Source: Rhodobacter sp. SY28-1
GTDB lineage: Bacteria; Pseudomonadota; Alphaproteobacteria; Rhodobacterales; Rhodobacteraceae
DNA: 64,000 bases
Direction of reading: 5' to 3'
Assembly (NCBI RefSeq): GCF_005222785.1
Contig: NZ_STGH01000001.1
Coordinates: forward strand, 124,001 to 188,000
Below the pieces are notes generated by a model. That model searched no databases. It was given only the letters and a program-made list of their open reading frames with translations, and was not told the origin of the DNA. This document shows, one piece after another, positions 43,218 through 62,715 of the stretch (the first letter of the stretch is position 1; every line of letters starts with the position of its first letter). The translations under genes were made by a program, and so were the position numbers.

Positions 43218-43294
43218 ATTCGCGGCATCTTCCCGCCTGTTCCGGCGAATCTGCCGGACCGGTCCAATGAGGCCGATCCATAGGGAGGATACAT

Positions 43295-44320: not shown

Positions 44321-44333
44321 TCTGATCTGATCT

Positions 44334-44370
44334 CCGGCGCCGTTCCCCAAGGGGCGGCGCCGGTTCTTTT
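44334..44370 (+). terminator. Attenuator-like terminator between xylF copy 2 and xylH
   Basis: Arms CCGGCGCCG and CGGCGCCGG pair perfectly over nine bases with an internal CCCC/GGGG extension in the loop, followed by TTCTTTT. Lying inside an ABC operon, it probably allows only partial read-through, giving more binding protein than permease. Confidence 0.8.
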
Positions 44371-44471
44371 CCTGGCAGGTCGCCTGTCGTGTCCCGAAGC
44401 GGGACGACTTGGGTGCGTATGGACGCGCCCGGCACCAGCACAGCCCCATCCCTCTCAGGCTGGACGAGGAC

Positions 44472-45863: not shown

Positions 45864-45875
45864 GGGGCTGATATC

Positions 45876-46640: not shown

Positions 46641-48079
46641 TGTATATCGGGCTCGATCTCGGGACGTCAGGGATCAAGGGGATCCTGATCGGCGAGGACC
46701 AGCAGCTCCTTGCCGAAGCCACGGCCCCCTTGACGGTTCAGCGACCGGCAAAAGGGTGGAGCGAGCAGGCCCCCTCGGACTGGATTTCGGCAGCCGAGAC
46801 GGTGTTCGACCGGCTTGCCGCACAGAAGTCGCTGGGACAGGTCCGCGGGATCGGGCTGTCGGGTCACATGCACGGCGCGACGCTGCTGGATGCCGCGGAC
46901 GAGGTGCTGCGGCCCTGCATCCTGTGGAACGACACCCGCAGCTTTGAAGAGGCAGCCGAACTGGACGGCGACCCGATGTTCCGGCGGCTGACCGGCAACA
47001 TCGTGTTTCCGGGCTTTACCGCCCCCAAGGTGGTCTGGGTGGCCAAGCACGAGCCCGCGATCCGGGAGCGGCTGGCGAAGGTGCTGTTGCCCAAGGACTA
47101 TCTGCGGCTCTGGCTGACCGGAGAGCATGTCGGCGAGATGTCCGATGCAGCCGGGACCTCCTGGCTGGATACCGGCAAGCGGGACTGGTCGGACGATCTT
47201 CTGCAGGCCACCGGGCTTGAGCGCAGTCACATGCCGAGCCTGGTCGAAGGGTCCGAGGTTTCGGGCTACCTGCGAGAAGCCTTGTCGACCCGCTGGGGCC
47301 TGCCGAAAGGCGTGGTCGTGGCCGGGGGCGGCGGCGACAACGCGGCCTCGGGCGTGGGCGTCGGCGTGGTGCGGGCGGGTGAGGCGTTCGTGTCGCTTGG
47401 CACCTCGGGCGTCCTGTTCGCTGCGAACGACGGCTACCAGCCCGATCCAGAGACGGCGGTGCATACCTTCTGCCACGCGCTGCCGAACACCTGGCACCAG
47501 ATGGGTGTGATCCTTGCCGCGACGGATGCCCTGAACTGGTATGCCAAGCTGGTCGGGTCGGACGCTTCGACCCTGACGCGGGAACTTGGGCCGCTGCGCG
47601 AGCCGGGCAAGACGGTGTTCCTGCCCTATCTGGGCGGTGAACGGACGCCGCTGAATTCGGCCAGCGTCCGGGGCGCGTTCACCGGGCTGGAACATGCGAC
47701 CGACCGTCAGTCCGCGACGCGCGCGGTGCTGGAAGGCGTGACCTTTGCCATCCGCGACAGCCGCGATGCGCTGGCGGCCACGGGCACCAAGCTGGAGCAT
47801 CTCCTGGCCGTCGGCGGCGGGTCGCGGTCGGACTACTGGCTGCGGCTGATCGCGACGGCGCTGGACTGCCCGGTGCAACTGCCGGTCGCCGGGGATTTCG
47901 GCGGTGCCTACGGGGCCGCCCGGTTGGGCCTGATGGCCGCGACCGGGGCCGGGGCCGAGATCGCCACCCTCCCCCAGATCGCCCGGGTCGTTGAACCCGA
48001 CCCGACCCTCACAGACGCATTTGACGCGGGGCATGCCCGCTTCCGCGCCGCCCAGGCAGCTATCAAGGATCTGAAATGA
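46640..48079 (+). CDS. xylB: Xylulokinase
   Basis: A 479-residue FGGY kinase that phosphorylates D-xylulose to D-xylulose 5-phosphate for the pentose phosphate pathway. [17 protein letters not shown] is the phosphate-binding N terminus; [35 protein letters not shown] and [10 protein letters not shown] are FGGY family motifs, and [11 protein letters not shown] with [10 protein letters not shown] lies at the C-terminal end. The start ATG overlaps the last base of the xylG stop; a GTG one codon earlier is less likely. Confidence 0.94.
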
Positions 48080-49377
48080 CAGACTTTTTCAAAGGCATCC
48101 CGCAAATCAAATACGAAGGCCCCTCGTCAAAGAACGAGTTCGCCTTCCGCCACTACAACCCCGATGAGGTCGTTCTGGGCAAGCGGCTTGAGGACCACCT
48201 GCGCTTTGCCGTCGCCTACTGGCACAGCTTTGCCTGGCCTGGCGGTGACCCGTTCGGCGGTCAGACGTTCGAGCGACCCTGGTTCGGCGACGGCATGGCG
48301 CTGGCCAAGCTCAAGGCCGATGTCGCGTTCGAGCTGTTCGATATCCTTGGCGTGCCGTTCTACTGCTTCCACGACGCCGACGCCCGGCCCGAGGGCGCAA
48401 CCTTCGCGGAAAGCCTGAAGAACCTGAATGAGATCGCCGATTACCTTCAGGAGAAGCAGTCCAAGCACAAGGCGAAGCTCTTGTGGGGCACGGCGAACCT
48501 GTTCAGCCACCGCCGCTGGATGTCGGGCGCGGCCACCAACCCCGATCCGGATGTCTATGCCTACGCCGCCGCGACGGTGAAGGCGAACATGGACGTGACG
48601 CATCGTCTAGGCGGGCAGAACTATGTCCTCTGGGGCGGGCGCGAGGGGTATGAGACGCTCCTCAACACCGACCTGAAGGCCGAACGCGCCCATGCCGGTC
48701 GCTTCCTGCAGCAGGTCGTCGAATACAAGCACAAGATCGGCTTCAAGGGCACGATCCTGATCGAGCCCAAGCCGCAGGAACCGTCGAAGCACCAGTACGA
48801 CTATGACGTGGCGACGGTTTACGGCTTCCTCAAGGACTTCGGTCTGGAAAAGGAAGTGAAGACCAACATCGAACAGGGTCACGCCATTCTGGCCGGTCAC
48901 TCGTTCGAACACGAAATCGGTCTGGCCGCCGCGCTGGGGATCTTCGGGTCGATCGACATGAACCGGAACGACTATCAGTCCGGCTGGGACACCGACCAGT
49001 TCCCGAACAACCACGCCGAAAAGGCGGTGGCCTTCTACGAGATCCTCAAGGCGGGCGGCTACACCACTGGCGGCACCAACTTTGACGCCAAGATCCGCCG
49101 TCAGTCGCTCGACCCGGAAGATCTGGTTCTGGCCCATGTCGGCGGCATGGACACCTGCGCCCGCGCGCTGAAATCGGCGGCGGCGCTGCTGGAATCGGAC
49201 GAGATGGAGGCCGCGGTCAAGGCACGCTACGCGGGCTGGAATGATCCGAAGGCGCAAGCCATGCTGAAGGGCTCGCTGGAGGCCGCAGCGGCGCGGGTGA
49301 TCGACGAGAAGATCGAGCCACAGCCGAAGTCTGGCCGTCAGGAGCGGCTGGAGAACCTCTGGAACCGCTACGTCTGA
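48076..49377 (+). CDS. xylA: Xylose isomerase
   Basis: A 433-residue class II xylose isomerase, close to the usual 435-440. It interconverts D-xylose and D-xylulose using two divalent metals. Signatures are [34 protein letters not shown] (catalytic His), [17 protein letters not shown], and [18 protein letters not shown]; in the metal-site region it has [19 protein letters not shown], where the common text is DANRGD, a mild variation. The ATG overlaps the xylB stop, completing the xylFHGBA arrangement. Confidence 0.96.
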
Positions 49378-49477
49378 CGAAGACGGCGAATTCGACCAAG
49401 ACATTGCACCGGGGCCTGTCTAGGCTCCGGTGCATATCTTTCGACACCACGCACATCGCCAAGCCGAGGACCTTGAT

Positions 49478-51145
49478 TTGGACCAGATCGACCGCATCCT
49501 TTCCGCCGCGCCGTTCAACCTTGACGCCGAGGGGCGCGGCTGGGTGCGGTCCACACTTGGCGCGATGGAGCGGGCGGCGAAGGTGCGCCAGCTTTTCGTC
49601 CACATCTGCTTTGGCACCGGGCCCGAGGTGGTAGACCGCATCACTGCCCTCGCCCCCGGCGGGTTCACCAAGTTCTTCGGTCCGGATGCGCAAGCGGAAC
49701 TCGACACGCTGGACGCCCTGCGCGGCGCAGCGGCGATCCCCTACCTCGTTAGCGCCGATCTGGAAGGCAGCCGGATGAGCCCGCCCTTCGGGACCGAGGT
49801 GCCGAACCCGCTGGCGCTGGCGGCGGTGGACGATGTGCAGGCGTCAGGCACCATCGCCCGGATCATGGCCGAAGAGGCGCGGGCGGCTGGGGTGAACTGG
49901 TCGTTTACTCCGGTGATCGACATCAACGCGCTGTTCCGCTCGCCCATCGTCGCAACGCGCGGCCTCGGCTCCGACCCCGCCCGAATCCGCGCTCATGCGC
50001 TGGCCCATATCGCCGGGCTGCAGGCGAACGGAGTGGCGGCGACGGTGAAGCACTGGCCGGGCGAGGGGCATGACGACCGCGACCAGCACCTGGTGACGAC
50101 GATCAACCCTCTGTCCATGGAAGAGTGGAACGCCACCCACGGTGCCCTCTACCGTGCGGCGATCGAGGCGGGGGTGATGTCGGTCATGTCGGCGCATATC
50201 GCCTTGCCGGCCTATGTGCTGGACCATGACCCGAACGCGGGGGTCGAGGCCTATCGTCCGGCTTCGGTATCGCGCCTCTTGAACCAGACGCTGCTGCGCG
50301 AGGAGCTGGGGTTCAACGGGGTGATCGTGTCGGATGCCACGTCGATGGCGGGCCTTGGGGCCTGGGCGCACCGGGATGTGGCCCTGCCCGAAGTTGTGTC
50401 CTCGGGGTGCGATGTCATCCTGTTCTCTGACGAACCCGAGGCGGACATCGCCCGGATCGAGGCGGCACTGGACGACGGCCGCCTGACCTCGGCCCGGCTG
50501 GACGAGGCAATAATCCGGGTGCTTGGGCTGAAGGCCGCGCTGGGGCTGCATCGCACGGGGCGTGACCCTGCCCGCCGCGACAGGCTGTTCGACCCGAGGA
50601 ACGCCGCCATTGCCAAGGAGGTGACGGCCCGCGCCCCGACGCTGGTGAAGGACGTGCAGGGAATCTTGCCGCTGTCGCCCGACCGTCACCGTCGGGTGCT
50701 GGTCTATACCACCGGGATCGTCACCCCGCTGCATGGCATGGGGCAGGAGATGATCTTCGCCGACCTGATGCGCGCCGAGGGGTTCGAGGTCTCGTTCTAT
50801 TCGCCCGAAGCGCGGCAGGATCAACGCGCGTTCGATCTGGTCCTGTACCTGATGGCCGAAGAGACGTTGCTGACCCGGGGCCGCATCTTCTTGGACTGGA
50901 ACCGGCTGACCGGGGGAATGTTCGGCGCAATGGCGCGGCATTGGCACGAAGTGCCGACGATGCTCATCTCGTTCGGCTATCCCTATTACCTGTACGACGC
51001 CCCCCGGATGCCCTGCGTGGTCAACGCCTATGCCACGATGGACAGCATGCAGCGCGCGGTGCTGGACTGCATCCTTGGCCGAGCGCCGTTCCGGGGCAAG
51101 AATCCGGTGGACCCGTTCTGCGGCCTGCCTGACGCCCGCTACTGA
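49478..51145 (+). CDS. Glycoside hydrolase family 3 protein (NagZ-like motifs)
   Basis: A 555-residue GH3 enzyme from the TTG at 49478 (preceded by GAGG); a GTG at 49430 would add 16 residues. The N-terminal barrel has YLVSADLEGSRM, KHWPGEGHDDRDQH (the KHFPGxGxxxxDxH motif of beta-N-acetylhexosaminidases) and VIVSDATSMAG, which contains the nucleophile Asp. The extra C-terminal region (about 350-555) is an alpha/beta domain not found in short NagZ. No signal peptide. It lies downstream of xylA, but the motif argues for hexosaminidase rather than xylosidase; substrate uncertain. Confidence 0.82.
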   Translation: MDQIDRILSAAPFNLDAEGRGWVRSTLGAMERAAKVRQLFVHICFGTGPEVVDRITALAPGGFTKFFGPDAQAELDTLDALRGAAAIPYLVSADLEGSRMSPPFGTEVPNPLALAAVDDVQASGTIARIMAEEARAAGVNWSFTPVIDINALFRSPIVATRGLGSDPARIRAHALAHIAGLQANGVAATVKHWPGEGHDDRDQHLVTTINPLSMEEWNATHGALYRAAIEAGVMSVMSAHIALPAYVLDHDPNAGVEAYRPASVSRLLNQTLLREELGFNGVIVSDATSMAGLGAWAHRDVALPEVVSSGCDVILFSDEPEADIARIEAALDDGRLTSARLDEAIIRVLGLKAALGLHRTGRDPARRDRLFDPRNAAIAKEVTARAPTLVKDVQGILPLSPDRHRRVLVYTTGIVTPLHGMGQEMIFADLMRAEGFEVSFYSPEARQDQRAFDLVLYLMAEETLLTRGRIFLDWNRLTGGMFGAMARHWHEVPTMLISFGYPYYLYDAPRMPCVVNAYATMDSMQRAVLDCILGRAPFRGKNPVDPFCGLPDARY

Positions 51146-51195
51146 CAGCTGCTTCCTGACCGTGGGGCCGGAGCCTCTTGCGGGCTAGAGCGGAT

Positions 51196-51220
51196 TTGTG
51201 TCTACATCCAGTCTACACAA
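51196..51220. promoter_or_regulatory. Candidate operator upstream of the hydroxyproline-epimerase-like gene
   Basis: TTGTGT (51196-51201) and ACACAA (51215-51220) form an inverted repeat with 13 bases between, and GTCTACA is repeated directly at 51200-51206 and 51211-51217, one helix turn apart. The half-site resembles operators of FCD-type GntR repressors. It lies 21 bases before the gene start. No GntR gene is in the window. Confidence 0.5.
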
Positions 51221-51241
51221 TGCCAGCCCCGAGAGGCCGCA

Positions 51242-52273
51242 ATGCGCTGGAAGAAGACGCTGCAGGTTGTCGATGTCCATTGCGAGGGCGAGATCGGCAA
51301 GGTCATCACTTCGACCACCTTGGATGTGCCCGGGGCGACCATGCTGGACAAGCTGGTGCATCTGAACACCGTGGATGACTCCTTGCGCCGCATGGTCTGC
51401 TTTGAACCGCGCGGCTTTGCGCAGATGTCGGTCAACCTGATGCTGCCGCCGACGCGCCCGGATGCCGATGCGGGGTTCATCGTGCTGCAGCCCGACCGGG
51501 CGCATCCGATGTCAGGGTCGAACGCGATCTGCGTCACGACAGCACTGCTGGAGACCGGGATGCTGGAGATGCGGGAACCCGAAACGGTGCTGCGCCTGGA
51601 CACCGCGGCCGGGCTGGTGACGGTGACGGCAGCCTGTCAGGACGGCAAGGTGACCTCGGCCTCGATCAACACCTCGCCGTCCTTCGTGCAGGACCTGGAC
51701 CTTGTGGTCGAGACGACGGGGTTCGGCCGGATCAAGGTGGACGTGGCCTATGGCGGCTGCTTCTACGGGTTGATCGACGTGGATCAGGTCGGCCTGACCA
51801 TCGAGCCGAAGAATGCGCAGGCGTTGATGCTGGCCGGGGTGTCGATCCTGAACGACCTGATGGCAAAGGTTCCGGTCCAGCATCCCGAGCGGCCGAAGAT
51901 CAACCAGTTCTCCTATGCCATGTTCCGTGACAGGCGCGGCGACACGGTCAAGACTTGCACGGTGCTGAAGCCGGGCCGGGTGGACCGGTCGCCTTGCGGA
52001 ACCGGGTCCTCGGCGAACCTGGCGGCGATGCATGCACGGGGGCAGGTAAGGACGGGCGATGTGCTGACCTCTGAATCCATCATCGGCTCGCGCTTCCGGG
52101 TTGAGATGCTGGGCGAAACCACCGTCGGCAACCGCGCCGCTGTCCTGCCTCGGGTGACGGGGCGGGCCTGGGTCTATGGTATTTCGCAGCTGGGGCTTGA
52201 CCCGTCAGACCCCTTCCCGCGAGGCTTTGCGCTCTCGGATACCTGGGGTCCGGGGGTGGAAGACATCCTTTAG
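51242..52273 (+). CDS. Proline racemase superfamily, Ser/Cys hydroxyproline epimerase or dehydratase type
   Basis: A 343-residue enzyme of the proline racemase fold. Classical racemases use two cysteines; here the first position is Ser (PMSGSNAIC, Ser91) and the second is Cys (SPCGTGSSAN, Cys252). Ser/Cys members are known to act on 4- and 3-hydroxyproline rather than as proline racemases. Other fold markers are DVHCEGEIGKVI near the N terminus and GRAWVYGISQLGLDPSDPFPRGF near the C terminus. It is a separate unit, upstream of the ThDP operon, which might use its product. Exact reaction unproven. Confidence 0.82.
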   Translation: MRWKKTLQVVDVHCEGEIGKVITSTTLDVPGATMLDKLVHLNTVDDSLRRMVCFEPRGFAQMSVNLMLPPTRPDADAGFIVLQPDRAHPMSGSNAICVTTALLETGMLEMREPETVLRLDTAAGLVTVTAACQDGKVTSASINTSPSFVQDLDLVVETTGFGRIKVDVAYGGCFYGLIDVDQVGLTIEPKNAQALMLAGVSILNDLMAKVPVQHPERPKINQFSYAMFRDRRGDTVKTCTVLKPGRVDRSPCGTGSSANLAAMHARGQVRTGDVLTSESIIGSRFRVEMLGETTVGNRAAVLPRVTGRAWVYGISQLGLDPSDPFPRGFALSDTWGPGVEDIL

Positions 52274-52319
52274 GCCCGTCCCGGACGGACTGCCTCAGGC
52301 CACTCCTCTATGCATCTCT

Positions 52320-52336
52320 GACAAGTAAATCTTGTC
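52320..52336. promoter_or_regulatory. Candidate operator upstream of the ThDP operon
   Basis: GACAAG-TAAAT-CTTGTC is a perfect 6-base inverted repeat, 76 bases before the ThDP enzyme start and in an AT-richer patch. It is a good candidate for the binding site of the LysR protein encoded at the end of the operon. Confidence 0.5.
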
Positions 52337-52412
52337 GGTTCTCGGAATTTCTTGGTTTTCTGTCACCGACGCGGGGTGCAAGACTGCCGCAGCAGCAGGG
52401 TTGGGCAATCAG

Positions 52413-54077
52413 ATGAAGAACGGCGGGCAGCTTTTGGTGGAATGCCTTGTTGCGCTAGGCGCGACGAACGGGTTTGGCGTGCCGGGGGAAAGCTATCTGG
52501 CAGTGCTGGACGCGCTGCACGATACCCAAGGCAAGCTGGACTTCGTCCTCTGCCGGAACGAGGGCGGCGCGTCCTTCATGGCGGCGGCCTGGGGCAAGCT
52601 GACCGGCCAGCCGGGCCTGTGCTTTGTGACGCGGGGGCCGGGGGTGACGAACGCCTCGATCGGCATCCACACCGCGATGCAGGATTCCGCACCGATGATC
52701 GTCTTCGTCGGGCAAGTCGGCACCGACATGCGCGGGCGCGAGGCGTTTCAAGAGATCGACTATCGCGCGGTGTTTGGCACGATGGCCAAGTGGGCGGTCG
52801 AGATCGACGATGCGGATCGTCTTCCCGAAATCCTGTCCCGCGCCTGGATCACCGCCACGACGGGCCGCCCCGGCCCTGTGGTCATCGCCCTGCCCGAAGA
52901 CATGCTGAGCGGCCCTGCCACCGCCCTGCCCCTGACCGGCCCCGCCCGCATCACTGAGCCCGCGCCCGAGCCTGCGGCACTGGCCGAGGCGCTGGCGCTG
53001 CTTGCGGGGGCCGAACGCCCCGCGATCCTGCTGGGTGGCTGCAACTGGACCGAAGCCGGAAAGGCCGCCCTGCAAGCCTTTGCCGAGGCGTCGGATATCC
53101 CTGTCGTGGCGGCGCTGCGCTATCAGGACATGTTCGACAACCACTCGCCCTGTTATGCGGGCGATCTGGGTCTGGGCCTTGCGGCGGGTGTGCGCAAGAC
53201 GATGGCCGAGGCCGACGTGATCCTCGCGCTGAATACCCGGTTCGGCGAAATTTCGACCGAAAGCTACACGCTGTTCCAAGTGCCGACCCCGCGCCAGAAG
53301 ATCATTCATGTGCATGGCTCGGCGGCCGAGATCGGCAAGGTATATATCCCCACACTGGGCATCCCCGCCGGTCCCAACGCCTTTGTCGCGGCATTGCCCC
53401 CGGTCCGGGGCAACTGGGCCGAGTGGCGCAAACGCGCGCGTGCGGATTACGAGACAACCTTCACCCTGCCCGCGCAGCCCTCACCCGTCGACATGGGCCT
53501 TGTCACCGCCCACCTGCGCGAGGTGCTGCCCGAGGATGCCATCCTGACCAATGGGGCCGGGAACTTCACGGTCTGGCCGAACAAGTTCTTCAAGTTCGGC
53601 CCCAAGGGGCGCCTCTTGGCCCCACAGTCTGGTGCAATGGGCTATGGCGTGCCCGCCGCAATCGCGGCCAAGGTCGCCTGCCCGGACCGCACCGTGGTCT
53701 GCTTTGCCGGGGACGGCGATTTTCAGATGAATTGCCAGGAGCTTGGCACGGCGATGCAGGCCGGCGCCCAGCCGATCATCCTGATCCTGAACAACGGCAC
53801 CTACGGCACGATCCGCGCGCATCAGGAACGCCACTACCCGGCGCGGGTCTCGGGCACCGACCTGCAAAACCCAAACTTCGTCATGCTGGCGCAGTCCTAC
53901 GGTTTCCACGCCGAGAAGGTGGAGCGGACCGAGGACTTCCCCGCCGCTTTCGCCCGCGCCCGGGCCAGCCGCTCCGGCGCGGTCCTGGACCTTGCCATCT
54001 CGGCCGAGGCGCTGACACCCCGGCAAACCCTGTCGCAGATGCGTGCCGCCGCACTGGCCGCGAAGGCAAGAGAATGA
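52413..54077 (+). CDS. Thiamine diphosphate-dependent enzyme, acetolactate synthase-like
   Basis: A 554-residue ThDP enzyme of the acetohydroxyacid synthase/decarboxylase superfamily. LVALGATNGFGVPGESYLAVLDAL and VLCRNEGGASFMAAAWGKLTG (with the conserved catalytic Glu), FVTRGPGVTNASIGIHTAMQDS, and the ThDP-binding GDGDFQMNCQELGTAMQ ending in NN. It is probably a decarboxylase or carboligase of a catabolic pathway, since no regulatory subunit gene or branched-chain amino acid gene is nearby. I start it at ATG 52413 (MKNGGQLLVECL). Its stop overlaps the hyuA start (ATGA), so it is the first gene of the six-gene operon. Confidence 0.85.
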   Translation: MKNGGQLLVECLVALGATNGFGVPGESYLAVLDALHDTQGKLDFVLCRNEGGASFMAAAWGKLTGQPGLCFVTRGPGVTNASIGIHTAMQDSAPMIVFVGQVGTDMRGREAFQEIDYRAVFGTMAKWAVEIDDADRLPEILSRAWITATTGRPGPVVIALPEDMLSGPATALPLTGPARITEPAPEPAALAEALALLAGAERPAILLGGCNWTEAGKAALQAFAEASDIPVVAALRYQDMFDNHSPCYAGDLGLGLAAGVRKTMAEADVILALNTRFGEISTESYTLFQVPTPRQKIIHVHGSAAEIGKVYIPTLGIPAGPNAFVAALPPVRGNWAEWRKRARADYETTFTLPAQPSPVDMGLVTAHLREVLPEDAILTNGAGNFTVWPNKFFKFGPKGRLLAPQSGAMGYGVPAAIAAKVACPDRTVVCFAGDGDFQMNCQELGTAMQAGAQPIILILNNGTYGTIRAHQERHYPARVSGTDLQNPNFVMLAQSYGFHAEKVERTEDFPAAFARARASRSGAVLDLAISAEALTPRQTLSQMRAAALAAKARE

Positions 54078-56161
54078 CCCGCCAGATCAGACTTGGGGCC
54101 GACATTGGCGGCACCTTCACCGACGTCGCGCTGGAACAGGACGGCGCGATGCACTCGACCAAGGTGCTGACGACCTATGCAGCGCCGGAACAGGCCATCC
54201 TTGACGGCATGGACATCGTGCTGGCCGAGGCGGGGATCGGCTATGGCGATCTGGATATCCTGATCCACGGCACGACGTTGGCCACCAATGCCCTGATCGA
54301 ACGGCGCGGGGCGAAGGTTGCCTTTGTCACGACCGAAGGCTTCCGCGACGTGATCGAGATGCGGACCGAAAGCCGGTTTGACCAATACGACCTGAACCTG
54401 GTGCTGCCGACCCCGCTGGTCCCGCGCGAAGACCGGTTCCCGATCAAGGGCCGGATCGGCGCACAGGGGCAGGAACTTGCCCCGCTTGATGAGGTGGCGC
54501 TGGTGGCGTTGGCCGACCGGATTGCGGCCGGGGGTTATGGCGCGGTCGCCATCGGGTTCATCCATTCCTATGCCAGCCCCGCGCACGAACGCCGGGCGCG
54601 CGAGATCATCGCAGCGAGGGTTGCCCTGCCGATCTCGATTTCGTCAGAAGTCTCGCCCCAGATGCGGGAGTTCGAACGCTTCAACACGGTCTGCGCCAAT
54701 GCCTATGTGCGGCCGCAGATGGCCGATTACCTTGGCCGCTTGCAGACCCGTCTGCGTGAAAAGGGCGCGACGTGCCCGGTCTTCATGATCCACTCCGGCG
54801 GCGGGCTGATCAGCGTCGAGACCGCCGCCGAGTTCCCGGTGCGGCTGGTCGAATCCGGGCCTGCGGGCGGGGCGATCTTTGCCGCCGACGTAGCGCAGCG
54901 CTTCGGGCTGGAGAAGGTGGTCAGCTATGACATGGGCGGCACGACGGCCAAGATCTGCCTAATCGAGGGCTATCAGCCGAAGACCGCCCGCACCTTCGAG
55001 GTTGCCCGGTCCACCCGCTTTGCCAAGGGGTCGGGCATGCCGATCTCGATCCCGGTGATCGAGATGATCGAGATCGGCGCGGGGGGCGGATCCATCGCCT
55101 GGGTCGACAGTCTGGGTCGCATCCAGACCGGCCCGGAAAGTGCGGGGTCGGAGCCGGGACCGGCCTGTTACCAGCGCGGCGGCCTCCGGCCTGCAATCAC
55201 CGATGCCGATCTGGTGCTGGGAAAGCTGGACCCCGACAACTTTGCCGGTGGCGCGATCCGGCTGTCGCTGGACGCGGCGCGAACCGCAATCACCCGCGAT
55301 GTGGGCGACCGGCTGAACCTTGCGGCGGAAGCGGCGGCCTTCGGCATCGTCGAGGTGGTGGACGAGAACATGGCCAACGCCGCGCGCGTCCACGCGGTGG
55401 AAAACGGCAAGAACATCTCGGACAACATCATGGTGGCCTTTGGCGGTGCCGCCCCCCTGCATGCCGCGCGGCTGTGCGAAAAGCTGGGGATCGACCAGTG
55501 CCTGATCCCGCCGGGTGCGGGGGTAGGGTCTGCCATCGGGTTCCTGAAAGCCCCCTTCGCGTATGAGGCGCTGGCCTCCAGGATCATCCGGCTGTCCATC
55601 TTTGATGCCGATGCGATGAATGGGCTGATTTCCGATCTGAAGACCACGGCGGAAGGCTTTGTCCGCTCGGGCACCTCGGGCACCATCCAGCGTGAGATCA
55701 CCGCCTACATGCGCTATGTCGGGCAGGGCTGGGAGATTCCGCTGCCCCTGCCTGACCGTGCGTTTGTCCAAGGCGATGCCGCGACACTGCGCCGCGAATT
55801 CCAGGCGGCCTATGCCCGCTTCTTCGGTCGCGCCATCGACGGGCTGGAGGATCTGGAGATCGAGATCGTCACCTTCTCGGTCAAGGCGCAGGACATCCGC
55901 CCTGCCCCGGACCGTCATAAGATTAACTTGGGCCGGATCACGGAGGGCAACACGCTCTCACGTTCCGTGTTCGACCCGACCCAAGGCAAGGCCATCGCGA
56001 CCCGTATCGTCGAGCGCGATGCGATGAAACCGGGCGACAGGTTGCCCGGCCCGGCCGTGGTGGTGGAACGCGAAACCTCGACCGTCGTCACGTCGCCCTT
56101 CGACGTGGTGATGCAAAGCGATGGCAGCTTGCTGCTGATCCGCAAGGAGATGGTCAAATGA
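54074..56161 (+). CDS. hyuA: Hydantoinase/oxoprolinase subunit A (HyuA family)
   Basis: A 695-residue ATP-grasp-like/ASKHA-fold subunit. Markers: RLGADIGGTFTDVALEQDG at the N terminus, HGTTLATNALIERRGAKVAFVTTEGFRDVIEM, SGPAGGAIFAADV, and YDMGGTTAKICLIE. In the family these proteins use ATP to open hydantoins, 5-oxoproline or, with a third subunit, carboxylate acetone. Only A and B are present here, so the hydantoinase/oxoprolinase branch is likelier. Co-translated with the preceding and following genes through ATGA overlaps. Confidence 0.88.
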   Translation: MTRQIRLGADIGGTFTDVALEQDGAMHSTKVLTTYAAPEQAILDGMDIVLAEAGIGYGDLDILIHGTTLATNALIERRGAKVAFVTTEGFRDVIEMRTESRFDQYDLNLVLPTPLVPREDRFPIKGRIGAQGQELAPLDEVALVALADRIAAGGYGAVAIGFIHSYASPAHERRAREIIAARVALPISISSEVSPQMREFERFNTVCANAYVRPQMADYLGRLQTRLREKGATCPVFMIHSGGGLISVETAAEFPVRLVESGPAGGAIFAADVAQRFGLEKVVSYDMGGTTAKICLIEGYQPKTARTFEVARSTRFAKGSGMPISIPVIEMIEIGAGGGSIAWVDSLGRIQTGPESAGSEPGPACYQRGGLRPAITDADLVLGKLDPDNFAGGAIRLSLDAARTAITRDVGDRLNLAAEAAAFGIVEVVDENMANAARVHAVENGKNISDNIMVAFGGAAPLHAARLCEKLGIDQCLIPPGAGVGSAIGFLKAPFAYEALASRIIRLSIFDADAMNGLISDLKTTAEGFVRSGTSGTIQREITAYMRYVGQGWEIPLPLPDRAFVQGDAATLRREFQAAYARFFGRAIDGLEDLEIEIVTFSVKAQDIRPAPDRHKINLGRITEGNTLSRSVFDPTQGKAIATRIVERDAMKPGDRLPGPAVVVERETSTVVTSPFDVVMQSDGSLLLIRKEMVK

Positions 56162-57771
56162 CCGACGCCACTTTTGAGATCCGCATGCAGGTGATGTGGA
56201 ACCGGCTGATCTCGGTCGTCGAGGAACAGGCGATGACGCTGCTCCGTACCGCCTTTTCGACCTCTGTGCGCGAGGCGGGGGATCTGTCGGCAGGAGTCTT
56301 CGACCCCGAAGGCCGGATGCTGGCGCAGGCGGTGACGGGCACGCCGGGCCATGTGAACACGATGGCCGAGGCGGTCCTGCATTTCATCGACGAAATCGGT
56401 CGGCAGAACATGTTCCCGGGCGATACCTATGTGACCAACGATCCCTGGAAGGGGACCGGCCACCTGCACGACATCACCATGGTCTCGCCCAGCTTCAAGG
56501 GCGACCGGCTGGTCGGGTTCTTTGCCTGCACGGCGCATGTCGTCGATGTGGGCGGGCGCGGGTTCGGGGCCGACGGCAAGTCGGTCTACGAGGAAGGCAT
56601 CCAGATCCCGATCATGAAGTTCGCCGAACGGGGGGTGGTGAACAGCGTCCTGATCCAGCTTCTGCGCGCCAACGTGCGTGAGGCCAATCAGGTAGTGGGC
56701 GACTTCTACTCGCTGGCCGCCTGCAACGATGTCGGCCACCGCCGCCTGATCGCGATGATGGAGGAGATCGGGCTGGAAACGCTGAATGCGCTGGGCGATT
56801 TCATCTTCACCCGCACGCGCAACGCCACGCTGGACCGCATCCGCGCGCTGCCGGTCGGAAGCTGGTCCAACGATCTTCTGACCGACGGCTATGACAGCCC
56901 GGTGCGGCTGGCCTGTGCGGTGACCATCGGTGGCGACCGGGTGAATGTGGACTTCGCCGGGTCCGATCCGGTGAACGCCAAGGGCATCAACGTGCCGGTG
57001 ATCTACACCAAGGCCTATGCTTCTTACGCGCTGAAATGCGTCGTCGCGCCGGACATCCCGAACAACTGGGCCTCGCTGGAGGCGTTCACGATCACCTCGC
57101 CCGAGAATATCCTGAACGCCCCCCGGCCCGCCCCGGTGTCGGTGCGCCACGTCATCGGCCATCTGGTCCCCGATCTGGTGCTGGGCGCACTGGCGCAGGC
57201 GCTTCCCGGTCAGGTGCTCGCCGAAGGCGCGGCGGCACTGTGGAACATCCATATGTCGGTGCGCCCCGTTGCCGGTCAGGCTGGGCGCCGTGCCGAGATC
57301 CTGATGTTCAACTCGGGCGGCATGGGCGCGCGGCCGGGGCTGGACGGGTTGTCGGCCACCGCTTTTCCGTCCGGCGTGATGACCATGCCGATCGAGGCGA
57401 CGGAACAGACCGGCCCGGTGGTGATCTGGCGCAAGGAGCTGCGGCCCGACAGCGGCGGTGACGGGACGCATCGCGGGGGTCTGGGCCAGATCATCGAGAT
57501 CGAACCCGCCCCGGGGCATGAGTTCGACTTTTCCGCCATGTTCGACCGGGTCGGTCACGCCGCCAAGGGGCGCGACGGCGGACAACCCGGCGCGCCGGGC
57601 GGCGTGGCTTTGGACGACGGCACACAGTTGAAACCGAAGGGATGGCAGCATGTGCCTGCCGGGCGGCGGTTGGTGCTGCACCTGCCCGGCGGCGGCGGCT
57701 TTGGCGATCCCGCCGGACGCGAGCGGGAGGCTCGGGCAAACGATCTGTCGAAGGGCTATGTGACGAAATGA
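56158..57771 (+). CDS. hyuB: Hydantoinase/oxoprolinase subunit B (HyuB family)
   Basis: A 537-residue partner of HyuA. It begins TFEIRMQVMWNRLISVVEEQAMTLLRTAFS, then TYVTNDPWKGTGHLHDITMV, LLTDGYDSPVRLACAV, and LPGGGGFGDPAGREREARA near the end: the usual order of HyuB. It forms the ATP-dependent ring-opening enzyme with HyuA; the substrate is not identifiable. The start overlaps the hyuA stop, and its own stop overlaps the SDR start. Confidence 0.88.
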   Translation: MTDATFEIRMQVMWNRLISVVEEQAMTLLRTAFSTSVREAGDLSAGVFDPEGRMLAQAVTGTPGHVNTMAEAVLHFIDEIGRQNMFPGDTYVTNDPWKGTGHLHDITMVSPSFKGDRLVGFFACTAHVVDVGGRGFGADGKSVYEEGIQIPIMKFAERGVVNSVLIQLLRANVREANQVVGDFYSLAACNDVGHRRLIAMMEEIGLETLNALGDFIFTRTRNATLDRIRALPVGSWSNDLLTDGYDSPVRLACAVTIGGDRVNVDFAGSDPVNAKGINVPVIYTKAYASYALKCVVAPDIPNNWASLEAFTITSPENILNAPRPAPVSVRHVIGHLVPDLVLGALAQALPGQVLAEGAAALWNIHMSVRPVAGQAGRRAEILMFNSGGMGARPGLDGLSATAFPSGVMTMPIEATEQTGPVVIWRKELRPDSGGDGTHRGGLGQIIEIEPAPGHEFDFSAMFDRVGHAAKGRDGGQPGAPGGVALDDGTQLKPKGWQHVPAGRRLVLHLPGGGGFGDPAGREREARANDLSKGYVTK

Positions 57772-58589
57772 CCTCTCCCCGCTACAACCGCATCCTTCTG
57801 ACCGGAGCCGCAGGTCGGCTGGGCACCCATCTGCGCCGGGGCCTCGCCCCCTTGTGCAATCAGTTGCGGCTGGCCGATATGGCCCCGATCACCGACCTGC
57901 AATCGAACGAGACCGCGCTGCAGTTCGACCTCGCCGACATGGCGGCGACGGTGGCGTCCTGCGAAGGCGTCGATGCCATCGTCCACTTCGGCGGCATCGC
58001 CATGGAGGCAGGCTGGGACGCGATCCTGAACGCCAATATCCGCGGCAGCTATCACGTCTACGAAGGCGCGCGGCAGCACGGCGTCGGGCGCGTGGTCTAT
58101 GCCAGTTCGGTCCACGCCATCGGCTACCACCGGCTTGAGGATCAGATCGACGCCAACGCCCCGCATCGTCCCGACGGGCTGTATGGTCTGTCGAAGTGCT
58201 TTGCCGAAGACCTTGGCCGCCTGTACTGGGACAAGTTCGGGATCGAGACGGCTGCCTTGCGCATCTTCTCCAGCTTTCCCGAACCGGGGGACCGGCGGAT
58301 GCTGTGGTCCTGGCTGTCGTTCGAGGATTGCATCCGGCTGGTGACTGCCGCCGTCACGGCTCCGCGTGTAGGGTTCACCACGTCCTTCGGCATCTCGGAC
58401 AATACAGTCAAGCCGGTCGACAACCGGCTGGCTGGCCATCTTGGCTTTCACCCGCAGGACAACACCGAAACCTTCCGCGCCGGGGTCGAGGCGAATACTC
58501 CGACACCTGATCCCAAGGCTCCATCCGTCCAGCACCTTGGCGGCTGGTTCATCGACCTTGGCCATCCGGACGACAAGGCCAAGGCATGA
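57768..58589 (+). CDS. NAD-dependent epimerase/dehydratase, uronate dehydrogenase-like
   Basis: A 273-residue SDR. It has an N-terminal Rossmann motif LLTGAAGRLGTHLR, the catalytic region ASSVHAIGYH followed by YGLSKCFAEDLGRLY (YxxxK, Tyr-x-x-x-Lys present), and FSSFPEPGDRRM. The same order is typical of uronate dehydrogenase (Udh), but Udh usually shows a SxNHxxG sequence where this has SSVHAIG. It may oxidise a uronate or another polyol acid. Co-translated with hyuB and the FAD gene. Confidence 0.8.
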   Translation: MTSPRYNRILLTGAAGRLGTHLRRGLAPLCNQLRLADMAPITDLQSNETALQFDLADMAATVASCEGVDAIVHFGGIAMEAGWDAILNANIRGSYHVYEGARQHGVGRVVYASSVHAIGYHRLEDQIDANAPHRPDGLYGLSKCFAEDLGRLYWDKFGIETAALRIFSSFPEPGDRRMLWSWLSFEDCIRLVTAAVTAPRVGFTTSFGISDNTVKPVDNRLAGHLGFHPQDNTETFRAGVEANTPTPDPKAPSVQHLGGWFIDLGHPDDKAKA

Positions 58590-59794
58590 AACCGCAGTAT
58601 GACGTTGTCATAGTCGGCGGGGCGGTGATCGGATCGGCGGTGGCCTATTTCCTGATGGCAAACCCCGACTTCAACGGTTCGGTCCTGGTGGTGGAGCGCG
58701 ACCCGACCTATCGCTTTGCGTCAACCTCACTGTCAGCGTCCTCGATCCGGGTGCAGTTTTCCAACCCGATCAACGTGAAGATCAGCCAGTTCGGATCGGC
58801 CTTCATCCAGGATTTCGCACAAACTATGCAGGTGACGGGAGAGGCGCCGCCCGACCTGAACTTCCATCCCGGCGGCTACCTGTTCCTGGCCAATAGCGAA
58901 GACGGCGCGACCATCCTGCGCGAGAACAACGAAGTGCAGCGGGCCTGCGGGGCGGATGTAGTGCTGTGGGATCAGGACCAGCTTGCCCGCGCCTTCCCGC
59001 ATCTGAAAGTCGATGACATCCTTCTGGCAAGCTACGGCCAGTCGGGCGAGGGCTGGTTTTCCAACACCGGGCTGATGAACGGCTTCAAAGCCAAGGCGCG
59101 CGAACTGGGCGCGGACTATGTGACCGATGAGGTCGTGGCAATCGGGCGCGACGGTGCGCGCGTCACCTCTATCACGCTGAAAACCGGGGCGGTCATCGTG
59201 ACCGGGACGGTCGTCAACGCCTCCGGCCCCCGTGCCGCCCTGACCGCGCGCATGGCCGGGCTGGATGTGCCGGTCGAACCCCGCAAGCGCACTGTTTTTG
59301 TGTTTGACTGCGCCGCCTCTCCCGAAGGCAGCGCCACGGTGAACGGTGGGCGGCTGCCGCTGATGATCGACCCGACGGGTGTCTTCTGCCGCCCGGAAGG
59401 TCGCTACTTCCTGAGCGGGGCGCCCCCGGTCGAGGACCCCGCCGTCAACTGGGACGACTTCGAGCCGCGCTGGGAGGAATTCGAAGACATCGTCTGGCCC
59501 GCCCTTGCCCAAAGATCCCCCGCGTTCGAGGCCATCAAGCTGGTGAACCAATGGGCCGGGCACTACGACTTCAACCGGCTGGACCACAACCTGATCGTCG
59601 GCCCGCATCCCGAGGTGCCGAACTTCCTGTTCGCCAACGGCTTTTCCGGGCACGGGCTTCAGCAAGGTCCGGCTGTTGGACGGGCGATCAGCGAGTGGAT
59701 CACCTATGGCCAGTTCCGCACCTTGGACCTGTCCGAAGTCGGCTACGACCGCATTTTGGCAAACCGTCCCTTCCTGGAAAAAGCCGTGATCTGA
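58586..59794 (+). CDS. FAD-dependent oxidoreductase (DAO family)
   Basis: A 402-residue flavoprotein of the D-amino-acid/glycine/sarcosine oxidase superfamily. VVIVGGAVIGSAVAYFLM is a variant FAD dinucleotide motif (G-G-A-V-I-G), VVNASGPRAALTARMAG lies in the middle, and the C-terminal GLQQGPAVGRAISEWI is the usual DAO ending; NQWAGHYDFNRLDHNLIVGPHP belongs to the substrate-facing region. Likely oxidises an amine or imino acid, consistent with a pathway that starts from a proline-like compound. Its ATG overlaps the SDR stop. Confidence 0.82.
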   Translation: MKPQYDVVIVGGAVIGSAVAYFLMANPDFNGSVLVVERDPTYRFASTSLSASSIRVQFSNPINVKISQFGSAFIQDFAQTMQVTGEAPPDLNFHPGGYLFLANSEDGATILRENNEVQRACGADVVLWDQDQLARAFPHLKVDDILLASYGQSGEGWFSNTGLMNGFKAKARELGADYVTDEVVAIGRDGARVTSITLKTGAVIVTGTVVNASGPRAALTARMAGLDVPVEPRKRTVFVFDCAASPEGSATVNGGRLPLMIDPTGVFCRPEGRYFLSGAPPVEDPAVNWDDFEPRWEEFEDIVWPALAQRSPAFEAIKLVNQWAGHYDFNRLDHNLIVGPHPEVPNFLFANGFSGHGLQQGPAVGRAISEWITYGQFRTLDLSEVGYDRILANRPFLEKAVI

Positions 59795-59806
59795 CAGGGG
59801 GCCAGG

Positions 59807-60724
59807 ATGATCGACCTGACCAGACGACTTCCGCCCCTCAACGCTCTGCGCGTGTTCCACGTCGTCGTGCGGCATCGCAGCTTTCGCAGTGCCGCCGAGG
59901 AGTTGTCGGTCAGCCCGCAGGCGGTCAGCCAACAGATCAAGCTTCTGGAAGACACGCTTGGCTTGACCCTGTTCGAACGCAAGGGCCGCAGTGTCGAGCC
60001 GAACGAACAGGCGATCCTGTTGCAGCACTTCGTACAGGCAGCGTTTGACGAATTGTCCGAGGGCGTCCGTCGCGTCGCGCGACAGGACCACCGCAACCGG
60101 ATCAACGTGAACGCCAGCCCCTACTTTGCGATCCGCTATCTGCTGGACCGGATCACCCGGTTCCGCGATCTGGTGCCGGACGCGGACCTGCGCCTGACAA
60201 CCATGGTGGACCTGCCGGATTTCGTGGCCGACGACGTGGATGTGGCGATCCAGTGGGGCTATGGCGGCTGGCGCGGGGTGGAGGCGATGCTTCTCGTCCG
60301 CGACTACAAGGTGATCTGCTGCACACCCGACCTCGCACGGCGGATGGCAGGGGCGACCGATCTTGCGGGCATGCCGCTTCTGCATCCCGTCCTCTCGCCC
60401 GAGCTTTGGCCGAACGTCCTGCGCCATCTTGGCGTCGAGCGCGGCCCGTCCAAGGCCGACATGCAGTTGCAGGACGCCTCGACTGCGCGACGCGCCACAT
60501 TGGCAGGGCTTGGGATCGGTCTCTTGTCGACGATCGACGCGACCGAGGATCTGCAGCTGGGTCGCCTCGTCGCGCCCTTCGGCAAGGACGTGATGATGAC
60601 CATGCCGGAAGCGGAAATCCCCGGCTTCTACCTGATCCTGCCCAAGGCGCATCGGAGGGTGAAGACAATCGCCGCCTTCTGTGACTGGCTTTCTGCCCAG
60701 GACTGGAGCACGGACGCCCCTTGA
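59807..60724 (+). CDS. LysR-family transcriptional regulator (GcvA-like)
   Basis: A 305-residue LysR regulator. The helix-turn-helix is LPPLNALRVFHVVVRHRSFRSAAEELSVSPQAVSQQIKLLEDTLGLTLFERKGR, in consecutive segments, and GcvA-like features follow (VDVAIQWGYGGWRGVEAMLL, the 'DVAIRWG'-type block). The effector domain binds an unknown inducer. It is 12 bases after the FAD oxidoreductase gene on the same strand, so it is probably co-transcribed with the operon it controls; the GACAAG/CTTGTC repeat at 52320-52336 is a candidate target. Confidence 0.88.
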   Translation: MIDLTRRLPPLNALRVFHVVVRHRSFRSAAEELSVSPQAVSQQIKLLEDTLGLTLFERKGRSVEPNEQAILLQHFVQAAFDELSEGVRRVARQDHRNRINVNASPYFAIRYLLDRITRFRDLVPDADLRLTTMVDLPDFVADDVDVAIQWGYGGWRGVEAMLLVRDYKVICCTPDLARRMAGATDLAGMPLLHPVLSPELWPNVLRHLGVERGPSKADMQLQDASTARRATLAGLGIGLLSTIDATEDLQLGRLVAPFGKDVMMTMPEAEIPGFYLILPKAHRRVKTIAAFCDWLSAQDWSTDAP

Positions 60725-60727
60725 TCC

Positions 60728-60758
60728 GGGCGGATCGGGCCTTTGTGCCCGACCGCCC
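60728..60758. terminator. Terminator of the ThDP operon and LysR gene
   Basis: GGGCGGATCGGGC and GCCCGACCGCCC pair around CTTTGT with one bulge, in the gap between the convergent LysR and DUF2383 stops. T content after the stem is low, but the stem is strong. Confidence 0.5.
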
Positions 60759-60808
60759 GAGTCATTTGGGGCGCCCACTCCTCTTCGGTGACGCGGCAGA
60801 GACACGCC

Positions 60809-61303
60809 TCAGCTTGGGCGCGTGTCCGTAAGGATTTCGCGCAGTTCGACCAGCATCTCCGCGACCTTGTCGCGCGCGGTCTCGGGAAGATTGGTGTCAG
60901 CGGCCTCCGCGTAGGCATCCACCACATGGCGCTCACCCGAATGAATCTGGGTCAGCACGTCCTCGTCAATCTCGTCGAACAGCGCACGGGTCGCGACCAC
61001 GACGCGGTTCACAGTGCCCATGATCGAACCGCCCTCGTCGGGCGCTACGGCATTGTCGGCCAGAAGCCGGGTGAACTCTTCGCCGTGACGGCGGTGCAGT
61101 TCGACAAAGGCGCGGACGATGGGGGCGAAATCGGGCTCCGCATGCTCGGCCATCTTCTCGAAACCAGCCAGCGCGTCCAGCGTTCGGGTGCGGGCGATGG
61201 CGACGGCCTCCCAGGCCCTGTTGCGCGCGGCGGTGGCCTCGGGTTCAGACCCCGGAAGGGTCGCGTCGATCATCGGGGATACGGGCATCGGGGGTACGGG
61301 CAT
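60809..61303 (-). CDS. DUF2383-type helical-bundle protein
   Basis: A 164-residue protein, the four-helix-bundle type of DUF2383 proteins: RNRAWEAVAIARTRTLDALAGFEKMAEHAEPDFAPIVRAF, EEFTRLLADNAVAPDEGGSIMGTVNRVVVATRALFDEIDEDVL, and EAADTNLPETARDKVAEMLVELREIL, all given here as adjoining segments. Members are ferritin-like proteins of unclear function. I prefer the ATG at 61303 (after GGAGA), because upstream in-frame ATGs at 61315 and above lie in a proline-rich tandem repeat with no conserved context. Divergent from glgC. Confidence 0.7.
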   Translation of the reverse strand: MPVPPMPVSPMIDATLPGSEPEATAARNRAWEAVAIARTRTLDALAGFEKMAEHAEPDFAPIVRAFVELHRRHGEEFTRLLADNAVAPDEGGSIMGTVNRVVVATRALFDEIDEDVLTQIHSGERHVVDAYAEAADTNLPETARDKVAEMLVELREILTDTRPS

Positions 61304-61500
61304 CGGGCTCTCCATCGGGTTCGGGTCTGGCCCAAGAACGTGTCGGACAGCCCGCCGGTTCCGTTGGCTGCGCTGTCCGCAGACCAGGCGCGAATATGCG
61401 CTGGCTGGAGCGCAGCGTTCGAAATTCTGGAACCGTCCCAAGAGTTTCGTCGTTGTGCCGCGACCCGTCCTGAAATTCCCGAGCCAAAAGCGAGGCCACG

Positions 61501-62715
61501 ATGTTCGAAGATGTCGACCTTTCCGGAACCATGGCCGTCGTTCTGGCCGGCGGCCAGGGAAGTCGGCTGCACGAGCTGACCCAGCGGGATTGCAAGCCCG
61601 CGCTGCCCTTCACCCGCTTTCACCGCATCGTCGATTTCGCGATGGCGGGGCTGCAGCGGTCGGGCGTCGGCCGGACCATCCTTGCCACGCAATACTGCCC
61701 CGCCAATCTGAACTCTCATATCATGTCGACCTGGGGGCAGTCTGTCGCAGACGGCAAGCTGATGCTGCGGCATGGTCCCGACGTGGCCCCGGGGCAGGGC
61801 TATCGCGGCACGGCAGACGTGTTGCGCGCCAACGCCGCGCTGTTGGACGAGATGGGTGCCCGCGAGATCCTGATCCTTGCGGCGGACCACGTCTATTCGA
61901 TGGATTACCGGCACCTCGTCGCCAGCCATCGGCAAAGCGGCGCTGCCGTGACCTTGGCCGCCATGCCCGTGCCGATTGCGGACGCGGGCCGGTTCGGCAT
62001 CGTCACCCCAGGACCTGACGGCCGCATCGCGCGCTTTGCCGAGAAACCGGCGATACCTGAATCCATTCCGGGCGAGCCGGAGCTGTCGCTTGCCTCGCTG
62101 GGGATCTACGTCGCTGACTGGCCCTGGTTGAAGGCCGCGCTGCAGGACCCGCAGCAGCAGGATTTCGGCATGGACGTCATTCCACACGCCGTCGCCCAAG
62201 GCGATGCGGCAGCCTTCCGCTGGAGCGGCTACTGGCGCGATGTCGGCACGCTGGATGCCTTGCGCGAAAGCTGGCTTGATTTCGACACCGGGCCGACGCC
62301 CTGCCGACGACCGCTCGTCCCGGGCATGTCGCTGCCCGATCTGGACCACTTCCTGGCCCGCGACCGCTTTCGCGCCCGCGTCACGATGGGCGGGCTCAAG
62401 CTGATGTCCCCGCTTCTGGGCAGCGCGGATACCGTCCGGTGGGCCGCTCTCGACCGATCGATCCTGATGCCCGGCGCCCAGATCGGGCCCGGGGTCCGGC
62501 TGACCAACGTCATCGTGGGACCGGGTGCGATCATCGCCGACGGCATACAGATCGGCGAGGACCCCGACGAGGATCGCCGCTGGTTCCGCATCGCCGGGGA
62601 CACCACGCTGGTCACAGTCGCGATGCTGGCGCGTCGCGGCGCACTTCGGCCCCGCAGTCACAGCATCCTCGCGCTGAAACCGGGCCTCTTTCGCAGCAGA
62701 ATGAGAACATCATGA
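61501..62715 (+). CDS. glgC: Glucose-1-phosphate adenylyltransferase
   Basis: A 404-residue enzyme that makes ADP-glucose for glycogen, the committed step, usually activated by fructose 1,6-bisphosphate or pyruvate in this group. Motifs are VVLAGGQGSRLHELTQRDCKPALPF (N-terminal nucleotide-binding region), LRHGPDVAPGQGYRGTADVL, and DHVYSMDYRHL; the C-terminal left-handed beta-helix carries PGAQIGPGVRLTNVIVGPGAIIADG. Its stop overlaps the glgX start, so glgCX form an operon. Divergent from the DUF2383 gene by 197 bases. Confidence 0.93.
   Translation: MFEDVDLSGTMAVVLAGGQGSRLHELTQRDCKPALPFTRFHRIVDFAMAGLQRSGVGRTILATQYCPANLNSHIMSTWGQSVADGKLMLRHGPDVAPGQGYRGTADVLRANAALLDEMGAREILILAADHVYSMDYRHLVASHRQSGAAVTLAAMPVPIADAGRFGIVTPGPDGRIARFAEKPAIPESIPGEPELSLASLGIYVADWPWLKAALQDPQQQDFGMDVIPHAVAQGDAAAFRWSGYWRDVGTLDALRESWLDFDTGPTPCRRPLVPGMSLPDLDHFLARDRFRARVTMGGLKLMSPLLGSADTVRWAALDRSILMPGAQIGPGVRLTNVIVGPGAIIADGIQIGEDPDEDRRWFRIAGDTTLVTVAMLARRGALRPRSHSILALKPGLFRSRMRTS

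Follow-up and report, generated by a model that had tools for sequence, protein, structure and literature searches.

The degradation of 4-hydroxyproline by the mammalian-type route proceeds by way of an imine, 4-hydroxyglutamate, an aspartate-type transaminase and an aldolase, and involves a direct aldehyde dehydrogenase step, while uronate dehydrogenase (Udh) acts on a six-membered ring whose carboxylate is located next to the ring heteroatom. With these systems, and with the lactam-opening enzymes CapAB and OplAB (5-oxoprolinase), archaeal dye-linked L-proline dehydrogenase and the opine-lactam systems of Ti plasmids, we compare here a gene cluster located at positions 52413-60724 of a 64,000-nucleotide stretch of Rhodobacter sp. 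SY28-1 (contig NZ_STGH01000001.1, positions 124,001 to 188,000), this whole stretch being referred to as the window. The cluster is a real, widely shared and conserved bacterial operon, and it may, in a tentative reading to which we give somewhat less than an even chance, serve the catabolism of a cyclic imino acid of the proline or pipecolate type, probably hydroxylated or otherwise modified.

The unit consists of five enzyme genes followed by a regulator gene, all on the forward strand. A thiamine diphosphate (ThDP) enzyme of the PRK08199 subfamily, probably a 2-oxoacid decarboxylase or carboligase, is encoded at 52413-54077, followed by the HyuA-type ATP-binding subunit of an ATP-dependent lactamase/hydantoinase (54074-56161; recognized by Pfam and by conserved Asp10 and Asp286) and the HyuB-type metal subunit, to which ring opening is assigned (56158-57771; PF02538 at 480.9 bits, with metal ligands). 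Next are a short-chain dehydrogenase/reductase (SDR) of the Udh family with an altered substrate pocket (57768-58589; PDB entries 6mfh, 3rft and 3ay3 at 244-252 bits), a flavin adenine dinucleotide (FAD)-dependent amine or imino-acid dehydrogenase of the DAO family (58586-59794; PF01266, top match 1y56_B) and a LysR/GcvA-type protein (59807-60724; Pfam and NCBIfam), which is the probable regulator of the unit. Each neighbouring pair from the ThDP gene to the DAO gene overlaps by ATGA, giving four such junctions in the open reading frame listing and on codon check, and 12 bases separate the DAO stop from the LysR start. The first-pass annotation, made from the sequence alone, had given these same coordinates, overlaps and spacing, and its family assignments proved correct at the family level in the Pfam and NCBIfam profile searches from which the names used here were taken, the ThDP enzyme being the only one of the five enzymes to pass an NCBIfam cut-off. 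A simple scan of 51000-61600 revealed no promoter-like site and two terminator-like sites, both within genes.

A HyuB alignment search of species-level genomes returned at least 564 stretches encoding a relative at E 1e-3 or better, and the best 80 of these (69-89% identical) were used as the survey sample; 69 of the 80 loci extend at least 4.5 kb to either side of HyuB and form a full-flank set, in which neighbours were called at identity thresholds set in the script. Near HyuB, the full-flank loci contain HyuA (69), the SDR (64), LysR (58), the ThDP enzyme (56), an aspartate-type aminotransferase (53) and the DAO flavoprotein (37). The aminotransferase, which the window's copy lacks, is usually placed between HyuB and the SDR, and the commonest orders are ThDP-HyuA-HyuB-aminotransferase-SDR-DAO-LysR (22 of the 69) and LysR-ThDP-HyuA-HyuB-aminotransferase-SDR (19), the window's own order being found in three loci. 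The hosts surveyed include Rhodobacterales, Hyphomicrobiales and Halomonas, as well as Chromohalobacter with HyuAB and the aminotransferase only; HyuAB, SDR and DAO occur together in Rhodobacterales, Hyphomicrobiales, Paraburkholderia and Halomonas, and plasmid-borne copies are present in Paracoccus, Shinella, Pseudochrobactrum, Rhizobium and Paraburkholderia. Amino-acid ABC transporters are located near the unit in some cases (ABCa-type in 23 and HisP-type in 5 of the 69 loci). Recurrence of the gene set in so many genera, beyond chance, bears out the earlier claim of a single pathway unit. In two loci (L051, L055) the aminotransferase, or HyuA, HyuB and the aminotransferase, match in pieces only, and these are probably decaying operons or masked stretches.

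From gene content, conservation and residue patterns, which are directly established, we infer a series of reactions and a substrate class. The DAO flavoprotein would oxidise the ring at the C-N bond distal to the carboxylate, generating a cyclic imine that hydrates to a carbinolamine, and the Udh-fold SDR would use NAD(P)+ to turn this cyclic hemiaminal into a lactam, a step modelled on the conversion of a cyclic hemiacetal to a lactone by Udh. Activation of this stable lactam by HyuA and HyuB at the expense of ATP, and its hydrolysis, would then yield an amino-dicarboxylate, from which an aspartate-type aminotransferase (encoded in the operon in most relatives, and here presumably by another genomic copy) would produce a 2-oxo acid. 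Decarboxylation of the latter by the ThDP enzyme, replaced in relatives by cleavage with an HpaI/GarL-type aldolase, and a final aldehyde dehydrogenase step would complete the route, with LysR as the presumed regulator of the unit. If the substrate were 4-hydroxyproline, the intermediates would be 4-hydroxy-5-oxoproline, 4-hydroxyglutamate and 4-hydroxy-2-oxoglutarate, ring size and substituents being left free in the scheme. The sequence of DAO, SDR, HyuAB, aminotransferase and ThDP enzyme or aldolase is the simplest account in which each core gene has a job. It shares with the mammalian-type 4-hydroxyproline route the logic of imine, 4-hydroxyglutamate, aspartate-type transaminase and aldolase, and differs from it in that the direct aldehyde dehydrogenase step would give way to a lactam and an ATP-consuming step.

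The DAO protein appears closest in fold to L-proline dehydrogenase, and oxidation at ring C5 is put forward as a proposal. The archaeal dye-linked enzyme 1y56_B is its top match both by phmmer and by Foldseek (rank 1), with 3axb, another L-proline dehydrogenase, at rank 5, and the structural model (mean pLDDT, a per-residue confidence score, of 85.5) aligns to 1y56_B with a TM score of 0.81 by query length at 23% identity; this is the best match both in fold and in sequence, and the archaeal enzymes have other partner proteins. Flavin-dependent oxidation of an amine or imino acid, as suggested in the first-pass annotation, is still the best reading of this protein.

The SDR of the unit is 47% identical to Udh and shares with it the catalytic Tyr and Lys, Ser165 and Arg174, whereas Asn112 is changed to Val and Gly164 to Phe. 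Alignment to the Udh structure 3rft comprised 103 rows, corresponding to 96 distinct sequences as some genes were entered twice via two collections; Ser111, His113, Tyr136, Lys140, Ser165 and Arg174 are kept in all rows, Asn112 is replaced by Val in 102 (the window's protein included) and by Ile in one, Gly164 is replaced by Phe in 95, and residue 173 is Arg in 100. In 12 more distant SDRs (L022-L033) position 112 is likewise occupied by Val or Ile and Arg174 is unchanged, residue 173 being Ala or Pro. In Udh, Ser165 and Arg174 presumably hold the substrate carboxylate, and Asn112 we take to be a substrate-side residue. Because the SDR has lost Asn112 while keeping Ser165 and Arg174, a sugar acid is a less likely substrate than a cyclic carbinolamine acid; of the proposed uronate-type dehydrogenase, the family placement holds (Tyr136, Lys140, Ser165, Arg174) and the sugar-acid substrate becomes less probable. 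True uronate catabolism was set aside on this ground and because the genes that look like true Udh (43-45% relatives, three loci) have kdgD and transporters of the sugar or TRAP type as neighbours, none of which was found next to the unit where annotated regions were viewed. Many ‘uronate dehydrogenase-like’ SDRs of Rhodobacteraceae (L022-L033 and L200-L219, approximately 43-51% identity) are linked to DAO and to HyuAB or an aldolase. Such SDRs, which differ from Udh at residue 112 in the 12 checked, may be misnamed.

HyuA and HyuB belong to the same families as CapAB and OplAB and possess the features of ATP-dependent lactamases/hydantoinases, i.e. the ATP-site Asp pair and the Asp-His-Asp-His metal ligands. 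All 109 HyuB rows (102 distinct sequences) carry the ligands D42, H102, D105 and H127, while HyuA D286 is present in all 105 rows and D10 in 104, the remaining row having a gap. Asp10 and Asp286 align with D11 and D295 of CapA, and mutation of the CapA/CapB residues aligned to the conserved HyuA and HyuB positions abolished or nearly abolished caprolactamase activity, according to the available part of the source (PMC8453981). The unit's subunits score 455.7 (HyuA) and 156.4 bits (HyuB), far below the NCBIfam cut-offs of 1000 for CapA and CapB, and they differ from CapAB and OplAB in being joined to DAO, SDR and ThDP genes; between the CapB and HyuB pockets, a single weak pairwise alignment indicates the changes L38 to E39, I60 to T62, T336 to H331 and M339 to G334. 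A Zn hydrolase, which we take to be of the carbamoylase kind that hydantoin breakdown would require, is located near only 2 of 149 sequences (L149, the source of the query, and L166, detected by tblastn with one query), and because of this scarcity a hydantoin is considered less likely than a lactam. Of the earlier suggestion of ATP-dependent opening of a hydantoin or lactam, ring opening persists as the best reading of HyuAB and the hydantoin recedes.

The ThDP enzyme scores 768.7 bits against a cut-off of 539 for NF006052, and the PRK08199 subfamily model names no reaction. Glyoxylate carboligase has no catalytic Glu, a Val being present instead; this identity was set aside, considering that the window's enzyme has the catalytic Glu in its motif CRNEGGA. 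Among 91 aligned rows, 83 show CRNEGGA and 87 show EGGA.

Additional genes accompany the unit in relatives, including an aldehyde dehydrogenase (matched best by the 2,5-dioxovalerate dehydrogenase model, at 502 bits against a cut-off of 750), a GlcD-like protein, two further SDRs (SDR2 and SDR3), electron-transfer flavoprotein genes and amino-acid ABC transporters annotated as polar or branched-chain. The window's genome encodes elsewhere an aspartate-aminotransferase-like protein (53% identity), an aldehyde dehydrogenase (41%), GlcD-like proteins (41-43%) and an aldolase (43%), none of which is as similar as the operon-linked copies. Ten genomes with DAO-less loci were searched, and nine were found to contain a DAO relative elsewhere (best match 51-53% identical); the Methylobacterium genome (L141) gave no DAO relative at E 1e-40. 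Around eight of these detached DAO relatives, a GarL/HpaI-type aldolase adjoins in all eight, accompanied by an AroE-like gene and an SDR (7 of 8 each), a tartronate-semialdehyde-type reductase and a FadR-type regulator (6 of 8 each) and RidA (4 of 8), and six of the eight stretches continue into the SDR2-SDR3-LysR-transporter genes otherwise seen upstream of ThDP-HyuAB. Among the aldolase, reductase, AroE-like, SDR, RidA and FadR-type proteins tested, the reductase alone passes an NCBIfam cut-off (TIGR01505, 397.3 against 340.75 bits); the aldolase resembles GarL and HpaI, yet scores under both cut-offs. In Paracoccus yeei (L172, 6905-10100), genes of the molybdenum hydroxylase type (2Fe-2S, molybdopterin and isoquinoline oxidoreductase-like) adjoin a DAO2-aldolase cluster.

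Of the 390 genomes of the order, 192 have an SDR match at E 1e-30, a count that includes true Udh, and 20 regions (two from one genome) were sampled down this match listing at rough, non-random steps. HyuA and HyuB are located beside the SDR in ten of the sampled regions, nine of these having DAO, five an aldolase and three both aldolase and aminotransferase; the other ten comprise three with DAO and SDR and no HyuAB, three best matched by true Udh and four in which the SDR is without a close same-strand partner. Similarly, three of the loci L173-L178 have HyuA-HyuB-DAO-aldolase-SDR and three DAO-SDR only. Regions with DAO and SDR alone indicate, therefore, that this pair is wider in distribution than the full operon. 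The compact form HyuA-HyuB-DAO-(aldolase)-(aminotransferase)-SDR, a divergent relative of the unit, occurs in marine Rhodobacteraceae, and its aldolase and aminotransferase suit the proposed passage from amino-dicarboxylate to 2-oxo acid to aldol cleavage.

Upstream of the ThDP gene, at 51242-52273 on the forward strand, lies a gene for a proline-racemase-family protein of the Ser/Cys type (PF05544, 388 bits), which is 4-hydroxyproline-epimerase-like and whose membership of the unit is doubtful; it ends 139 bases before the ThDP gene, without overlap. Its best solved relatives are 4q2h and 4lb0, and the hydroxyproline-type dyad reported by the first-pass annotation is indeed present as Ser91 (in SGSN) and Cys252 (in SPCGTG), the dyad of 4lb0, the 4-hydroxyproline epimerase of A. 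vitis, being given as Ser 93 and Cys 255 in the available part of its paper. The protein falls under the cut-off of all six NCBIfam models matched, including 4-hydroxyproline epimerase equivalogs (236.7 against 376, 164.5 against 450 and 108.4 against 442 bits). Its place was compared, among the matches listed, with that of SDRs of at least 59% identity in 17 other genomes of the order: eight have listed epimerase relatives, none of them sharing a contig with the SDR at a distance of 250 kb or less, two have a match without a listed place, and seven have no match at E 1e-60. An epimerase-family gene (at least 29% identity) is in reach of 7 of the 80 survey loci (L071, L086, L087, L100, L110, L114, L124), among which the Mesorhizobium loci L110, L114 and L124 contain a 44-45% relative and the Cypionkella loci L086 and L087 a 60-63% relative on the opposite strand, approximately 5 kb beyond DAO. 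The two Cypionkella loci speak for a link, and for the earlier idea of the epimerase as a feeder of the pathway, against which the 17 genomes speak; the tie to the operon is weak, and the epimerase was rejected as a core gene, being absent from most unit copies. In the window's genus one genome (G171) has the order xylA-GH3-ThDP-HyuA-HyuB-SDR-DAO-LysR without the epimerase, and another (G338) has xylA-GH3-epimerase-ThDP without the rest of the unit. Within this genus the unit comes apart piecemeal, one genome retaining epimerase and ThDP only (L191, 15590-17218) and another all except the epimerase (L045). Directly upstream, positions 42120-51145 are occupied by a xylose/sugar operon (two substrate-binding-type proteins, more transporter genes, xylB and xylA) and a GH3 protein, gene names being assigned by eye except for GH3, and xylB-xylA-GH3 also precedes the unit or a unit remnant in two genomes of the genus besides the window's.

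Several points weigh against a lactam-forming cyclic-imino-acid pathway. An imine of the 1-pyrroline-5-carboxylate type could be oxidised via the open aldehyde without ATP, and no reason for the lactam detour can be given. Within reach, DAO is absent from 32, the aminotransferase from 16 and the ThDP enzyme from 13 of the 69 full-flank loci, and sarcosine oxidases nearly equal L-proline dehydrogenase in Foldseek score with DAO, at an identity of approximately 23%. Among solved structures, an N-methylhydantoinase comes nearest to HyuA (351.6 bits) as well as to HyuB (158.8 bits). SDR2, SDR3, the AroE-like protein, RidA and the GlcD-like protein of relatives are not explained by the pathway, and a search of the window strain for SDR3 at E 1e-30 gave no match.

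The kinship with N-methylhydantoinase speaks for catabolism of a hydantoin or creatinine-type compound with HyuAB as a true hydantoinase, together with an Asp/Glu-racemase-family gene (PRK07475) near 2 of the 69 loci and also at L035, and with the presumed carbamoylase-kind enzyme near L149 and L166; as the latter is confined to these two sequences, and SDR, aminotransferase and ThDP enzyme would be left without a role, we consider this very unlikely. Catabolism of (di)hydroxypipecolate, in which an oxo-hydroxyadipate would be cut by the GarL-type aldolase to pyruvate and a semialdehyde, followed by tartronate-semialdehyde reductase, is distinctly improbable rather than negligible: it agrees with the six-membered ring of the Udh substrate and its carboxylate next to the heteroatom, with the TIGR01505 assignment of the linked reductase and with the resemblance of the aldolase to GarL and HpaI, although the latter is under both cut-offs and reductase and aldolase are confined to extended clusters, none being present in the window. 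Bacterial OplAB, in the available part of PMC11033972, opens delta-valerolactam well and gamma-butyrolactam in traces only, which again favours a six-membered ring.

Opine- or Amadori-type catabolism we consider unlikely. The DAO enzyme would here cleave the secondary amine by which a sugar or keto acid is attached to an amino acid, HyuAB would open the pyroglutamyl-lactam of the conjugate, and the SDR would oxidise the freed sugar-like aldehyde. Unit copies are common on plasmids, and the accessible portions of three sources suggest that Hyu-type pairs of Ti plasmids act on opine lactams, the pair being accompanied by LysR and ABC genes (PMC6733357) or, in the rideopine region, by an FAD oxidoreductase (PMC10410297), and relate flavin opine dehydrogenases to L-proline dehydrogenase (PMC4575208). 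In the same portions no Udh-like SDR, aminotransferase or ThDP enzyme is named for the Ti-plasmid systems, and the ThDP enzyme, aspartate-type aminotransferase and aldolase of the unit would have no role; moreover, the SDR lacks Asn112, fructosyl-peptide oxidases match DAO weakly (approximately 24 bits), and a gluconolactonase-type gene was found in 0 of 149 sequences with one query. Ordinary hydroxyproline use, with the adjacent epimerase generating cis-4-hydroxy-D-proline and DAO acting as D-hydroxyproline dehydrogenase, draws on the likeness of the epimerase to 4lb0 in its dyad, on the two Cypionkella loci and on the relatedness of D-hydroxyproline dehydrogenases to DAO (PMC4575208, available part). 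It would leave HyuAB, SDR and ThDP enzyme jobless, the few epimerase-family genes near survey loci include three from one genus, and the defining deaminase (imino acid dehydratase/deaminase, DHDPS family) is not among the genes of 51242-60724, the rest of the genome not having been searched; we judge it very unlikely indeed. Betaine demethylation was also rejected, a BHMT-like gene being present in L206 only and a GcvT-like gene in L206 and L062 only, among 163 sequences (162 loci of more than 8 kb plus the window).

Open-access literature searches aimed at the cyclic-imino-acid pathway yielded no description of it, in agreement with the initial impression that the gene combination matches no textbook pathway, and the unit is apparently a conserved pathway without a published description. 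The enzyme families themselves are already known; novelty would lie in their combination and in the position of a Udh-fold enzyme ahead of an ATP-dependent lactamase. More tentatively still, the unit might represent a general route by which bacteria degrade cyclic imino acids: a Udh-fold SDR acting as carbinolamine dehydrogenase would convert a flavoenzyme-derived imine to a lactam, which would then be opened at the expense of ATP; such a route would be spread over alpha-proteobacteria of soil, plants and sea, probably in hundreds of species, with its SDRs open to misnaming as uronate dehydrogenases. The operon is present in rhizobia, Paracoccus-like and marine bacteria, and, if the proposal is true, these would possess a new enzyme reaction, that of a carbinolamine dehydrogenase, and a new way of degrading proline-like compounds, and a group of proteins now called ‘uronate dehydrogenase-like’ would receive a corrected name.

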